Assembly (NCBI RefSeq): GCF_014874095.1
Contig: NZ_JADBEB010000001.1
Location: 9,300,001 to 9,364,000, forward strand
Source of the DNA: Plantactinospora soyae
Lineage (GTDB): Bacteria; Actinomycetota; Actinomycetes; Mycobacteriales; Micromonosporaceae
Length of the DNA: 64,000 nt
Direction: 5' to 3'
The stretch's first letter is position 1, and each line of letters begins with the position of its first letter. Under the pieces are notes generated by a model that saw only the letters and a program-made list of their open reading frames with translations, was not told where the DNA came from and did no database searches. This document shows positions 6,487-10,041 of this stretch, one piece after another. Made by a program: the position numbers and the translations under genes.

Positions 6487-7143
6487 GTGACCAGCACAGT
6501 TGCCGGATTGACCAGCGTCCGGGTCGGGACGATCGACTATCTGACCGGCTGGGACGAGCAGCGTCGGGTGCACGAGGCGGTGGTCGCCGGGAAGCGCCCC
6601 GACACCGTCCTGCTGCTCGAACATCCGAGCGTCTACACCGCCGGCAAGCGCACCGAACCCTGGGACCGGCCGATGGACGGTACCCCGGTGATCGACGTGG
6701 ACCGGGGCGGCAAGATCACTTGGCACGGGCCGGGACAGCTCGTCGGCTATCCGATCATCAAGCTGCCCGGGGCGGACAGCGGCCTGCCGGTGGACGTCGT
6801 CGCCTTCGTCCGGCGTACCGAGCAGATGCTCCAGGACGTCTGCGTCGAGCTGGGGCTGACCACCGCCGGCTTCGTCGAGGGCCGCAGCGGGGTCTGGGTA
6901 CCGGCCGACGAGCGGGGACCGGAACGCAAGGTGGCCGCCCTCGGCATCCGGGTGGCCCGGGGCGTGACCCAGCACGGCTTCTCGATCAACTGCGACTGTG
7001 ACCTGTCGGCGTACGACCGGATCGTCGCCTGCGGGCTACGGGACGTCGGCACCACCTCGCTGAGCGCCGAACTCGGCCGCCCGGTGACCGTCGCCGAGGT
7101 CCTCCCGGTGGTGGAACGCCACCTCCCGACTCTTCTTGGTTAG
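6487..7143 (+). CDS. lipB: Octanoyltransferase LipB
   Basis: LipB transfers the octanoyl group from octanoyl-ACP to the lipoyl-domain lysine of dehydrogenase E2 subunits and GcvH. The 218-residue protein is of normal length. It has the BPL/LplA fold motifs [28 protein letters not shown], the conserved Lys in [10 protein letters not shown], and the acyl-thioester Cys in I-V-A-C-G-L. Its TAG stop lies inside the palindromic repeat at 7139-7191. In most actinobacteria lipA follows directly; here a convergent tRNA-synthetase gene intervenes. Confidence 0.95.
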
Positions 7144-7191
7144 GAAGGGCCCCTTCTTCTACAAAAAACGATAAGAAGGGGCCCTTCCTTT
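7139..7191. repeat. Palindromic GGGCCC-arm repeat, copy 1
   Basis: A 17-bp perfect stem (7142-7158 with 7173-7189) and a 14-base A-rich loop. It fills the whole 47-base space between the lipB stop and the convergent aspS stop and overlaps the lipB TAG codon. It probably acts as a bidirectional terminator. Three related copies occur at 25878, 49535 and 51158. Confidence 0.85.
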
Positions 7192-8498
7192 CATGGCGTG
7201 AGCCGGTGGAGGTCGCGGGGGAAGGCGGTGACCTCGCGGACGTTTCCGGCGCCGAGGAGCCGGGCGACCATCCGCTCCAGGCCGAGGGCGAAGCCACCGT
7301 GCGGGGGCATGCCGTGGCGGAAGGCGTCCAGGTAGGACGCGTACGGGGTCGGGTCCTCGCCTCGGGCGGCCAGTGCCGTCAGGTAGTCCTGGTGGCGGTG
7401 CAGGCGTTGGCCGCCGGTGACCAGTTCGACGCCACGGAAGAGCAGGTCGAACCCGTTGGTGTACGCCCGGGTCGGGCCGCCGGACGGGACCTCCGTGGTG
7501 GCGGGGTGGGTGTAGAAGGGGCGTTTCGCCATCGGGTAGCCGGTGACGAAGAGGAAGTCGGAGCCGTGCTCGGTCCGGGCCCACTCGCCGAGGGCGCGTT
7601 CGTGGACCGGGGCGAGGTCCGGCTCGTCCGGCGGGGCACCGGCGATCCAGAGCGCCTCGGTGAAGTGCACGGCGGGGATCTCGGACGGCACCACCGGCAG
7701 CTCCACGCCCAGCGTGGCCAGTACGGCGCCGGCCCGGTCCGGAAGATGTCCGAGCATCCCGGCGAGGGTCGTACGGAGCATCCGCATCACGTCCCGGTGG
7801 TCGGTGACGAAGCCGAACTCGACGTCGAGCGAGGTGTACTGCGCCAGGTGCCGGGTGGTGTCGTGCGGCTCGGCCCGGAACACCGGACCGACCTCGTAGA
7901 CCCGCTCCAGCACGCCGACCAGCATCTGCTTGTAGAACTGCGGCGACTGGGCCAGGTAACCGGGCCGGCCGAAGTAGTCGATGGCGAAGACGTTCGCCCC
8001 ACTCTCGGTGGCGGAGGCCACGATCTTCGGGGTGTGCACCTCGACGAAGCCCAGCCCGTCCAGGGTGGAACGGAAGCCGGCTACCAGCGCGGCGGAGATC
8101 CGGAGCGCGGCGGAGCGGGTCGGGTGGCGCAGCGCCACCGCCGCGTGGTCGAGCTGGGTCGGCAGGGCGGCGGTCAACTCCGGCCGGTACACGTCGAACG
8201 GCGGTGGCACGGCGGGGTCGCCGAGCGGCCGTACCGTGGGCTCGACCAGCTCGACCCCGGCGGGCGCGGCCGGGTTCGCGACCACCCGGCCGGTCACCTC
8301 GACCACCGACTCCTCGGGCAGTTCGGCCAGCCGGGCCCGCAGGTCGGCGTCGGTCACCACGGCCTGGGCCAGGCCGACGCCGTCCCGGACGATCAGGAAC
8401 GTAACGGACTTGAGCTGTCGGCGGCGGTGCACCCAGCCGGCGACCGTGACGGTCGCACCGACGTGCTCGGGCAGGGACGTGGTGCCAAGGCGGGACAT
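7191..8498 (-). CDS. aspS: Archaeal-type aspartyl-tRNA synthetase (probably non-discriminating)
   Basis: A 435-residue class IIb synthetase, much shorter than the bacterial AspRS (about 590) because it lacks the GAD insertion. An N-terminal OB fold carries G-W-V-H-R-R-R-Q-L-K. The catalytic core has motif 2 (V-F-R-A-E-P-H-D-T-T-R-H), L-D-V-E-F-G-F, V-T-G-Y-P-M-A-K-R-P-F-Y-T typical of AspRS rather than AsnRS, and motif 3 G-L-E-R-M-V. Archaeal-type enzymes often charge both tRNA-Asp and tRNA-Asn. The start is the ATG at 8498, with CGAGGAG at 8513-8507; upstream in-frame sequence is leader RNA. A T-box with a GAC specifier precedes it. It sits between lipB and lipA on the opposite strand. Whether a bacterial AspRS exists elsewhere cannot be seen. 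Confidence 0.9.
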   Translation of the reverse strand: MSRLGTTSLPEHVGATVTVAGWVHRRRQLKSVTFLIVRDGVGLAQAVVTDADLRARLAELPEESVVEVTGRVVANPAAPAGVELVEPTVRPLGDPAVPPPFDVYRPELTAALPTQLDHAAVALRHPTRSAALRISAALVAGFRSTLDGLGFVEVHTPKIVASATESGANVFAIDYFGRPGYLAQSPQFYKQMLVGVLERVYEVGPVFRAEPHDTTRHLAQYTSLDVEFGFVTDHRDVMRMLRTTLAGMLGHLPDRAGAVLATLGVELPVVPSEIPAVHFTEALWIAGAPPDEPDLAPVHERALGEWARTEHGSDFLFVTGYPMAKRPFYTHPATTEVPSGGPTRAYTNGFDLLFRGVELVTGGQRLHRHQDYLTALAARGEDPTPYASYLDAFRHGMPPHGGFALGLERMVARLLGAGNVREVTAFPRDLHRLTP

Positions 8499-8812
8499 CG
8501 GTGGTACTCCTCGAAATGTCGCGACGCCCACGGCCGGTGTGGTCCGCGGTACGTCGAGCGGGCCCCGGGGAGTGTGGGCGAGCGGGAACTCGCGGTGCCA
8601 CCACACCTTCACCGCCGCGGTACGGCCGGCGGCCTCGTTCGCGACCCGTGTCGTCGGGCCGGACGGCGGGTTCTACTGAGCGCCGGAGCGCCGTTCTTCC
8701 CGCAGCTCAGGAGGGTCTTCCCAGCCCCGGCCGGAGATCACCTTCCAGCAACGGTGACTTCCTGGACTCCGGTGGTCGAGGTGGTACTCGGCTCCGTCTT
8801 CGCAACGCGGGC
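8499..8812 (-). promoter_or_regulatory. T-box riboswitch with Asp (GAC) specifier upstream of aspS
   Basis: Read on the minus strand. The basal Stem I helix is 8795-8792 with 8713-8710. The specifier loop has the AGTA element at 8788-8785 opposite GAA (8720-8718), followed by GAC (8717-8715), an Asp codon. Upper helices are 8772-8767 with 8736-8731 and 8757-8753 with 8742-8738. AGTAGAA lies at 8677-8671. The T-box GTGGTGGCACCGCG (8604-8591) matches the consensus at 12 of 14 positions; its TGGC bulge pairs with GCCA, as expected for a G discriminator. Antisequestrator helices are 8606-8601 with 8577-8572 and 8593-8589 with 8582-8578. A competing 8-bp helix pairs 8607-8600 with 8543-8536. ACTCC at 8573-8569 can pair with GGAGT of the Shine-Dalgarno region. 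No terminator with a U-tract is seen, so translational control is likely. A TACGCT -10 box lies at 8818-8813. Confidence 0.82.
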
Positions 8813-8930
8813 AGCGTAGCCACGCCCGCCGGAGCTCCGGTACCGAATATCCGCTTCCGGCGTGAGTGGCATCACCCGGCTCGGCGCGTGAGTCCGGTCG
8901 CCTCTGGTCGATCGACCGGGCCGTTCCGCG

Positions 8931-8936
8931 TAGGCT
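8931..8936 (+). promoter_or_regulatory. Leaderless-type -10 box (TAGGCT) of lipA
   Basis: TAGGCT ends 7 bases before the GTG at 8944, supporting that start over the alternative GTG at 9001. Confidence 0.5.
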
Positions 8937-8943
8937 CGGATTC

Positions 8944-10041
8944 GTGACCATCGAGCACTCCGCGCCATCCACCGCCGCTGAAGTCGGACGGGTGAGCGTC
9001 GTGACCGCACCGGAGACCCGTACCGGTGCTCCCGGCACTCCCGTCGCTCCCGAGGGACGCCGGCTGCTGCGGGTCGAGGCCCGCAACGCCGCGACCCCGA
9101 TCGAGCGCAAACCGCCGTGGATCAAGGTCAAGGCGAAGATGGGACCCGAGTACACCCAGCTACGCGGTCTGGTCTCCCGGGAAGGGCTGCACACGGTCTG
9201 CCAGGAAGCCGGCTGCCCTAACATCTACGAGTGCTGGGAAGACCGGGAGGCGACCTTCCTGATCGGCGGCGACCAGTGCACCCGCCGGTGTGACTTCTGC
9301 CAGATCGACACCGGCAAGCCGGCCGACTTCGACGCGGACGAGCCCCGCCGGGTCGCCGAGTCGGTCGTCGCGATGGGCCTGCGGTACGCCACCATCACCG
9401 GCGTGGCCCGGGACGACCTGCCGGACGGCGGCGCCTGGCTCTACGCCGAGACGGTCCGGCAGATCCACGCGCTGACCCCGCGGGACCGGTCGATCGCTGC
9501 CGGCGAGGGCGCGGTCGGCGCCCTGGACGCGCTGCCGCACTGCGGCGTGGAGCTGCTGATCCCCGACTTCAACGCGAACCCGGAGCAGCTCGCCGAGGTG
9601 TTCGGCGCCCGCCCGGAGGTGCTCGCGCACAACGTGGAGACCGTGCCGCGGATCTTCAAGCGGATCCGGCCGGCGTTCCGGTACGAGCGGTCGCTCGACG
9701 TGATCACCCAGGCCCGGACCGCCGGGCTGGTGACCAAGTCCAACCTGATCCTCGGGCTCGGCGAGGAGCGGTCCGAGGTCTCCCAGGCCCTGCGCGACCT
9801 GCACGCCGCCGGTTGTGAGCTGATCACCATCACCCAGTACCTGCGGCCGACCCCACGGCACCACCCGGTCGAGCGCTGGGTCAAGCCGGAGGAGTTCGTC
9901 GAGCTGCGCGAGGAGGCCGAGGAGATCGGCTTCGCCGGGGTGATGAGCGGGCCGCTGGTGCGCTCGTCGTACCGGGCCGGCCGGCTCTACCAGCAGGCCG
10001 TCGAGGCTCGGACGGCACCGGCTCCGGCCGCGCTGCGGTAA
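8944..10041 (+). CDS. lipA: Lipoyl synthase LipA
   Basis: LipA is a radical-SAM enzyme that inserts two sulfur atoms into the protein-bound octanoyl chain made by LipB. It has the auxiliary-cluster motif [12 protein letters not shown], the radical-SAM motif C-T-R-R-C-D-F-C, and the C-terminal R-S-S-Y whose Ser ligates the auxiliary [4Fe-4S] cluster. Starting at GTG 8944 it has 365 residues, slightly longer than usual because of an N-terminal extension. GTG 9001 would give a more typical length, but only 8944 has a well-placed -10 box. It is separated from lipB by aspS and its leader. Confidence 0.95.

Follow-up and report, generated by a model that had tools for sequence, protein, structure and literature searches.

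The window analyzed here, a 64,000-nucleotide stretch of the Plantactinospora soyae genome, carries on its minus strand a gene for an aspartyl-tRNA synthetase (AspRS), aspS2, behind a leader that an earlier note had read as a T-box riboswitch. The locus raises the question of whether this leader is a T-box, which tRNA it would sense, how it would act on the gene and what place such a gene has beside the housekeeping enzyme. Very probably, a tRNA-Asp-specific T-box riboswitch controls the translation of aspS2, a reserve AspRS; here we infer tRNA binding, switching and the reserve role, the last from the distribution of the gene and by analogy.

At 6487–10041 of the window, aspS2 is flanked by lipB and a lipA-like gene, to both of which it is inverted:

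7191..8498, minus strand: aspS2, accessory non-discriminating-type AspRS by its profiles, 435 aa (NF003483; PF00152 and PF01336)
6487..7143, plus strand: lipB, convergent neighbour (NF010925, 319 bits)
8866..10041, plus strand: lipA-like radical SAM gene, divergent neighbour (PF04055, 65.9 bits; LIAS_N, 24.2 bits, missing the cut-off of 27)

The aspS2 protein passes the cut-off of NF003483, aspartate--tRNA(Asn) ligase (522.6 bits, cut-off 353), and stays under that of the related TIGR00458 (339.4 bits, cut-off 368.4). The housekeeping AspRS is separately encoded (G000:C1:5118207-5119955, 709.7 bits). Among 101 genomes, an ordinary bacterial AspRS is matched in 100 and is above cut-off in 98, and an aspS2 homologue (E ≤ 1e-30) is found in 47, the copy of G046 being only 40% identical. 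Judged from these profiles, aspS2 is an accessory, archaeal/non-discriminating-type AspRS and not the housekeeping aspS; the earlier note spoke of an aspS leader, which is corrected here to the leader of the accessory gene. A profile search of the genome found no asparaginyl-tRNA synthetase (asnS) above cut-off, which is consistent with a non-discriminating, tRNA-Asn-charging AspRS. The closest named matches of aspS2 are from Micromonospora, in a genome scan that may leave out own or very near records. When the phylum was sampled evenly, the protein was present at E ≤ 1e-80 in two of 296 genomes, its own and one of the same family, so the gene is not phylum-wide. In five relatives without aspS2, the gap between lipB and the lipA-like gene is 10–200 nt (G005, G006, G026) or ~0.6–0.9 kb (G014, G029), and lipA and/or lipB are present at 53 of 73 aspS2 loci (loci of unequal length). 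As this site occurs both with and without aspS2, the data suggest that the gene and its riboswitch come and go jointly there.

The leader itself (8499–8809, minus strand) is a complete T-box and a true member of the class, with the following elements:

8571..8809, minus strand: T-box leader, full RF00230 match (model 1–219)
8706..8807, minus strand: Stem I in its long form, including the specifier loop and the distal loop (46-sequence alignment A1)
8785..8788, minus strand: AGUA, 5′ strand of the specifier loop (sequence; near-invariant in A1)
8715..8717, minus strand: specifier GAC (Asp), with GAA before and C after (sequence)
8666..8703, minus strand: Stem II, S-turn-like strands GGGAAGAA / AGUAGAACCC (by eye; the RF00230 alignment agrees, with three non-standard pairs)
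8631..8660, minus strand: probable Stem IIA/B pseudoknot region (by eye only)
8611..8633, minus strand: Stem III (RF00230 alignment)
8589..8609, minus strand: antisequestrator 5′ arm with the T-box sequence (helices 99.8% paired in 41 leaders)
8597..8600, minus strand: T-box bulge UGGC, complementing the tRNA-Asp 3′ end GCCA (sequence)
8569..8582, minus strand: antisequestrator 3′ arm, whose terminal ACUCC (8569–8573) is the anti-Shine-Dalgarno (anti-SD) (sequence, pairing across leaders)
8506..8510, minus strand: Shine-Dalgarno (SD) GGAGU, predicted partner of ACUCC 8569–8573 in the OFF state (duplex energy, permutation test, fold)

Several of these elements had been claimed beforehand. The count of 12 of 14 matching bases agrees with the T-box consensus, and the AGTA/GAA specifier loop with GAC is found where claimed. 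The TGGC bulge proposed to match the discriminator is the UGGC at 8597–8600, facing GCCA of the host tRNA-Asp, and the mutually exclusive helices are recovered as paired arms, with ACUCC belonging both to the antisequestrator end and to the SD pairing. Note that the specifier is followed on its 3′ side by C in the window, and by C in 34, A in 20 and U in one of 55 rows; a conserved purine at this place is described in a T-box review (PMC7583486), from which the window leader thus differs, the purine being usual but not defining. At the putative site of the distal interdigitated T-loop platform (IDTM) of Stem I, AGAGAG and the distal loop are conserved in A1, and the window carries AGGAAG.

Against Rfam RF00230, the leader (8571–8809, minus strand) aligns to model positions 1–219 of 219 with 46.3 bits, corresponding to an E-value of 4.6e-9 for the 561 bases searched and of 1.9e-8 for the whole 9.7-Mb genome. 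The scan proposed by the earlier note thus returns a match, below the gathering score. An Rfam scan of the window at the gathering threshold lists zero matches, the aspS2 leader included, because 46.3 bits is lower than the gathering score of 93, which is a database threshold and not a biological feature. When the 101 related genomes (own included) are searched with RF00230, 78 give a match at E ≤ 0.01 and none a match of ≥ 93 bits, ileS-type leaders being among those below; the cut-off looks too high for genomes of this group, which suggests that it hides such T-boxes from routine annotation. The genome has only two matches at E ≤ 10, the aspS2 leader as the best and an ileS-type leader (E 0.12), so none lies at the housekeeping aspS. 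This ileS-type leader (L002, G000:C1:9707824-9707988) is an ultrashort Stem I T-box, CCGG-CCAUCA-CCGG, scoring 19.9 bits with RF00230. In single-sequence folding, the minimum free energy of the aspS2 leader is not lower than that of shuffles (z-score 0.25), so free energy alone gives no evidence for a T-box.

Compensatory changes among relatives, suggested earlier as a check, are found in Stem I and in the antisequestrator. Alignment A1 comprises 46 long Stem I rows, excluding duplicates and leaders missed by the pattern (short, broken or lacking a T-box pattern), and its RNAalifold structure has 22 Stem I pairs, with compensatory change at 16. The fraction of paired cells is 92.3%, versus 76.5% in shuffles and 33–47% when slid by 1–3 columns, a slide comparison that favours the structure since it came from the same alignment; cells changed on both sides number 154, versus 52 in shuffles. 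For the antisequestrator (alignment A2, 41 rows, i.e. A1 minus L028, L030, L032, L053 and L054), 99.8% of cells are paired, with both-sided change at three of 12 pairs. These data bear on whether the leader could be a decayed or inactive relic, like the broken copies seen in relatives (Stem I lost in L035, L049 and L058; a decayed Ser T-box at L220). We regard this as exceedingly improbable for the window copy, which has every expected element and whose pairs co-vary among relatives.

To read the specifier, we used a long Stem I pattern without any demand on the triplet, on 71 rows. All 53 leaders that fit it carry GAC (53/53). The 18 non-fitting rows are the ten short Stem I forms, L031, L057, L055, L035, L049, L058, L017 and L060; GAC is seen by eye in the ten short forms, L031, L057 and L055 (upper Stem I missing), and not in L035, L049 and L058 (Stem I lost), L017 (no T-box) or L060 (GAU or AUC). 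A narrower pattern gave GAC in 55 of 55 rows, a partly circular count because it admits only GAC or GAU. The codon agrees with the regulated gene, an AspRS, and the host tRNA-Asp has the anticodon GUC, G73 and an encoded CCA, its 3′ end GCCA being the complement of the UGGC bulge. At position N of the T-box, 61 of 70 leaders have C and nine have U, both of which can pair with G73.

Could the switch read another tRNA, either Asn or, in a neighbouring register, Thr (ACC) or Arg (AGA)? The synthetase is annotated as an aspartate--tRNA(Asn) ligase and the host tRNA-Asn(GUU) likewise has G73, so the UGGC bulge alone cannot separate Asp from Asn; AGA, moreover, is constant in the long Stem I forms. 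However, the +1 register varies (ACC in 34, ACA in 20 and ACU in one of 55 rows) and is thus not conserved, and the −1 register is AGA in the long but UGA in the short forms, with GAC retained in both. The same register reads AUC at 15 ileS-type loci of relatives (gene identified by eye), whose leaders have a UGGU bulge, and UCC before serS. We therefore consider another tRNA very unlikely and keep tRNA-Asp as the ligand. For the distant Bacillota leaders, the pattern scan did not settle the specifiers. None of the outcomes that the earlier note had set against its reading (no RF00230 match, no covariation, a specifier other than GAC) occurred.

How the T-box would act is indicated by the sequence between the antisequestrator and the gene. 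The minimum-energy fold of 8496–8609 includes the pairing of ACUCC (8569–8573) with GGAGU (8506–8510), and a scan found no terminator-like site at 8400–9000. A predicted SD sequestrator exclusive with the antisequestrator and the absence of a terminator are class II features. The anti-SD:SD duplex of the window species reaches −9.6 kcal/mol, with seven pairs and an interruption, which falls short of the mean of −11.7 kcal/mol. Over 44 leaders (L053 and L054 excluded), this mean for the own partner compares with −10.4 kcal/mol for permuted partners, and 0 of 5000 permutations reach the own-pair energy, although this statistic ignores relatedness. The lack of a terminator together with the species-specific anti-SD/SD match makes translational control of aspS2 the most likely mode, judged from sequence. 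Transcription attenuation or Rho-dependent termination instead of SD hiding has for it that transcriptional action is typical of most annotated T-boxes, as stated in the review (PMC7583486), and that the related aspS2 leader L053 (Chloroflexota MAG) shows by eye a G+C-rich hairpin and then UUUU, L054 having a similar hairpin with no clear U run. At the window locus, the missing terminator-like site and the species-specific match of the SD to the antisequestrator 3′ arm (relatedness ignored) make it an unlikely alternative. The claim of an Asp-responsive, probably translational T-box is thus sustained by GAC in 53/53 leaders, the lack of a terminator and the anti-SD/SD co-variation. A sigma-70 promoter scan found none, which is uninformative for an actinobacterium.

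In the translational mechanism that we propose, uncharged tRNA-Asp would accumulate, its anticodon GUC would pair with GAC of Stem I and its free 3′ end GCCA with UGGC, stabilizing the antisequestrator (GGUGUGG:CCACACU plus GCGAG:CUCGC). The antisequestrator would tie up the end of the anti-SD, leaving the SD GGAGU exposed and aspS2 translated. The 3′ end of charged tRNA-Asp could not dock, so ACUCC would pair with GGAGU and aspS2 would be off. The enzyme would then serve as an inducible back-up upon failure or inhibition of the housekeeping AspRS, a role that is our favoured guess, by analogy with the reserve synthetases of antibiotic producers.

The leader family around aspS2 is of more interest than the single copy. 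The upstream region is readable in 45 of the 47 aspS2 genomes, contig ends leaving 88–89 nt in the other two, and a T-box is found in 44 of them, by RF00230 just upstream in 36 and by motif with a shortened Stem I in eight; in G059, there is no T-box in 427 nt upstream. Three forms occur at aspS2: a long Stem I followed by enough space for Stem II (40 rows, including the window), a long Stem I with ≤ 57 nt to the T-box (14 rows) and a short Stem I (10 rows). The first two are split by the distance from Stem I to the T-box and not by locating Stem II, and the second is called Stem-II-less because ≤ 57 nt could not hold a Stem II like that of the other leaders. Mapped on an AspRS tree of 66 rows, the short form requires five changes and the Stem-II-less form nine; well-supported branches force at least two and at least four of these, respectively. 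L045 (leader identical to L019) and L056 (partial) were excluded from both AspRS trees; the first tree took every fourth of the distant loci L064–L112, and L180, L058, L017, L055 and L060 were dropped before the 66-row tree. All 14 Stem-II-less rows have A after the specifier, and of the others six of 39 have A and 33 have C, with U in one further row; a short distance is associated with A at a Fisher value of 1.6e-8, with L031 entered by hand and descent ignored by the test.

The short forms retain GAC. For most of them, one can draw a hairpin that places GAC in the loop, e.g. GGGG-AGUGACG-CCCC (Nakamurella, L052) or CCGG-UUGACGC-CCGG (L176), L029 and L171 being ambiguous; such hairpins are possible rather than best folds, since the search listed GAC-loop hairpins only. 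Within L172/L174/L177 and within L016/L019, the GAC stretch is nearly unchanged and the flanks have diverged. S-turn-like Stem II strands are kept in L029 and L176, a single strand (GGUAGAA) in L052, and none was seen by eye in the other seven short forms. In some relatives, Stem I thus appears reduced to a predicted small hairpin with GAC. A leader pared down to such a hairpin and lacking Stem II would hold less than the literature deems necessary, Stem II being called essential in the review (PMC7583486) when Stem I is truncated.

Several loci deviate in other ways. In the Stem II region of L033, L035, L038, L049 and L058 (Micromonospora group), there is an inverted-repeat element of ~55 nt (GGAAGGGC...TTAAC), next to which L035, L049 and L058 have lost Stem I. 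L053, L054 and L057, from Chloroflexota and Bacillota MAGs, have GAC T-boxes whose leader ends by eye in a G+C-rich hairpin; these are possibly transcriptional forms of the same switch. Tandem T-box-like motifs stand upstream of the aspS2 homologue at L066, L067, L068, L072, L074 and L075 and, further, at L078, L084, L097, L098 and L106, mostly in Clostridium.

Translational ileS T-boxes of Actinobacteria were reportedly described by Sherwood et al. in 2015. Candidate T-boxes upstream of ileS were listed in an actinobacterial set, with translational control proposed (PMC1262725), and the review treats them likewise (PMC7583486). The aspS2 leader shares with them the T-box bulge, the antisequestrator set against an SD sequestrator, the phylum and the lack of a terminator (PMC1262725). 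It differs in having GAC and UGGC versus AUC and UGGU, in a long Stem I with distal loop versus the ultrashort Stem I of the ileS-type L002 in the same genome, and in its target, which here is an accessory synthetase. A T-box on one of several aspS copies is also shared with Clostridia, C. acetobutylicum aspS being such a case (PMC2494555). Many Bacillota loci have homologous AspRS genes with T-box motifs upstream, but these proteins are mostly ~37–46% identical to aspS2 and their T-boxes are mostly described as transcriptional. The putative reserve role resembles that of the self-resistance or reserve SerRS, IleRS and TrpRS of antibiotic producers, likewise divergent second synthetases expressed when needed, as set out in a review (PMC9437257). 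That review, however, never uses the term T-box, and the neighbours of aspS2 here are lipB and a lipA-like gene.

The earlier note held the T-boxes reported for the phylum to be mainly of the ileS type. A His T-box is also in print for the C. glutamicum his operon in PMC9413887, which states in general terms that T-boxes are broad in Actinobacteria, and Ser T-boxes (UCC) precede spare serS genes. In other surveys, 32 T-boxes are given for 19 genomes filed under Actinobacteria, 18 of them in Symbiobacterium (PMC2494555), 1134 T-boxes are sorted into 18 specificities (PMC3766115), and TBDB scanned Actinobacteria with a class II model (PMC7778990) and may list some of these leaders. No Asp or Ser T-box in Actinobacteria appeared in the open-access literature searched, supplements and per-gene tables aside. 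The window T-box thus belongs to a known class, with an Asp specificity unreported for the translational group in that literature.

R1, a covariance model built on the Stem I of the Asp leaders, matches 70 of 296 genomes of the phylum at E ≤ 0.001. Most of the 30 R1 loci read precede ileS, with AUC by eye, and others include a pheS-like gene (UUC); two are cut by contig ends. In the Streptomyces-like genus of G224, R1 matches 86 of 295 genomes at E ≤ 1e-5, and at ≥ 67 bits there are 45 places in 35 genomes, all of which were read, with GAC at 30 and UCC at 15 (L248, L250, L251–L253, L259–L264, L268–L270 and L220). The genes scanned after GAC encode AspRS of the NF003483 family (L257, L251, L258), that of L257 being 38% identical to the window protein, and those after UCC encode SerRS (TIGR00414, 367 bits at L254 and 390 bits at L251; L254 and L248 are the same place, a spare SerRS); the other genes were assigned by eye, if at all. 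UCC and GAC units lie ~3 kb apart in five genomes (G551, G429, G661, G500, G622). A UGGA bulge, unable to pair with G73, occurs in four of 30 Streptomyces-like leaders (L226, L230, L232, L240), which counts against the reading. In this genus, RNA of the same kind stands before spare genes for two synthetases, AspRS (GAC) and SerRS (UCC).

We advance only tentatively, and as a doubtful generalization, that in high-GC actinobacteria a translational T-box serves as an alarm on reserve synthetases (Asp, Ser) sensing failure of the housekeeping enzyme, and that at aspS2 the sensor was repeatedly reduced, some leaders keeping just one specifier hairpin and the antisequestrator, without the elbow-binding distal Stem I or a recognisable Stem II. 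If the main reading of aspS2 is right, tRNA-sensing RNA control in Actinobacteria would extend from ileS (and his) to spare Asp and Ser synthetases, in families rich in antibiotic makers, and the aspS2 leader would be a ready-made sensor for AspRS inhibitors. The three architectures at aspS2 (a long Stem I with or without space for Stem II, and a short Stem I) would likewise form a natural series for probing the minimal needs of a T-box.

Two further observations concern Stem I of this type. At L220, the UCC copy in G224 noted above, Stem I is kept and the T-box is gone, beside an apparent remnant of a synthetase gene. In deep actinobacterial lineages, an R1-like Stem I stands before genes that by eye are citramalate-synthase-like or ilvD-like (L206, L210).
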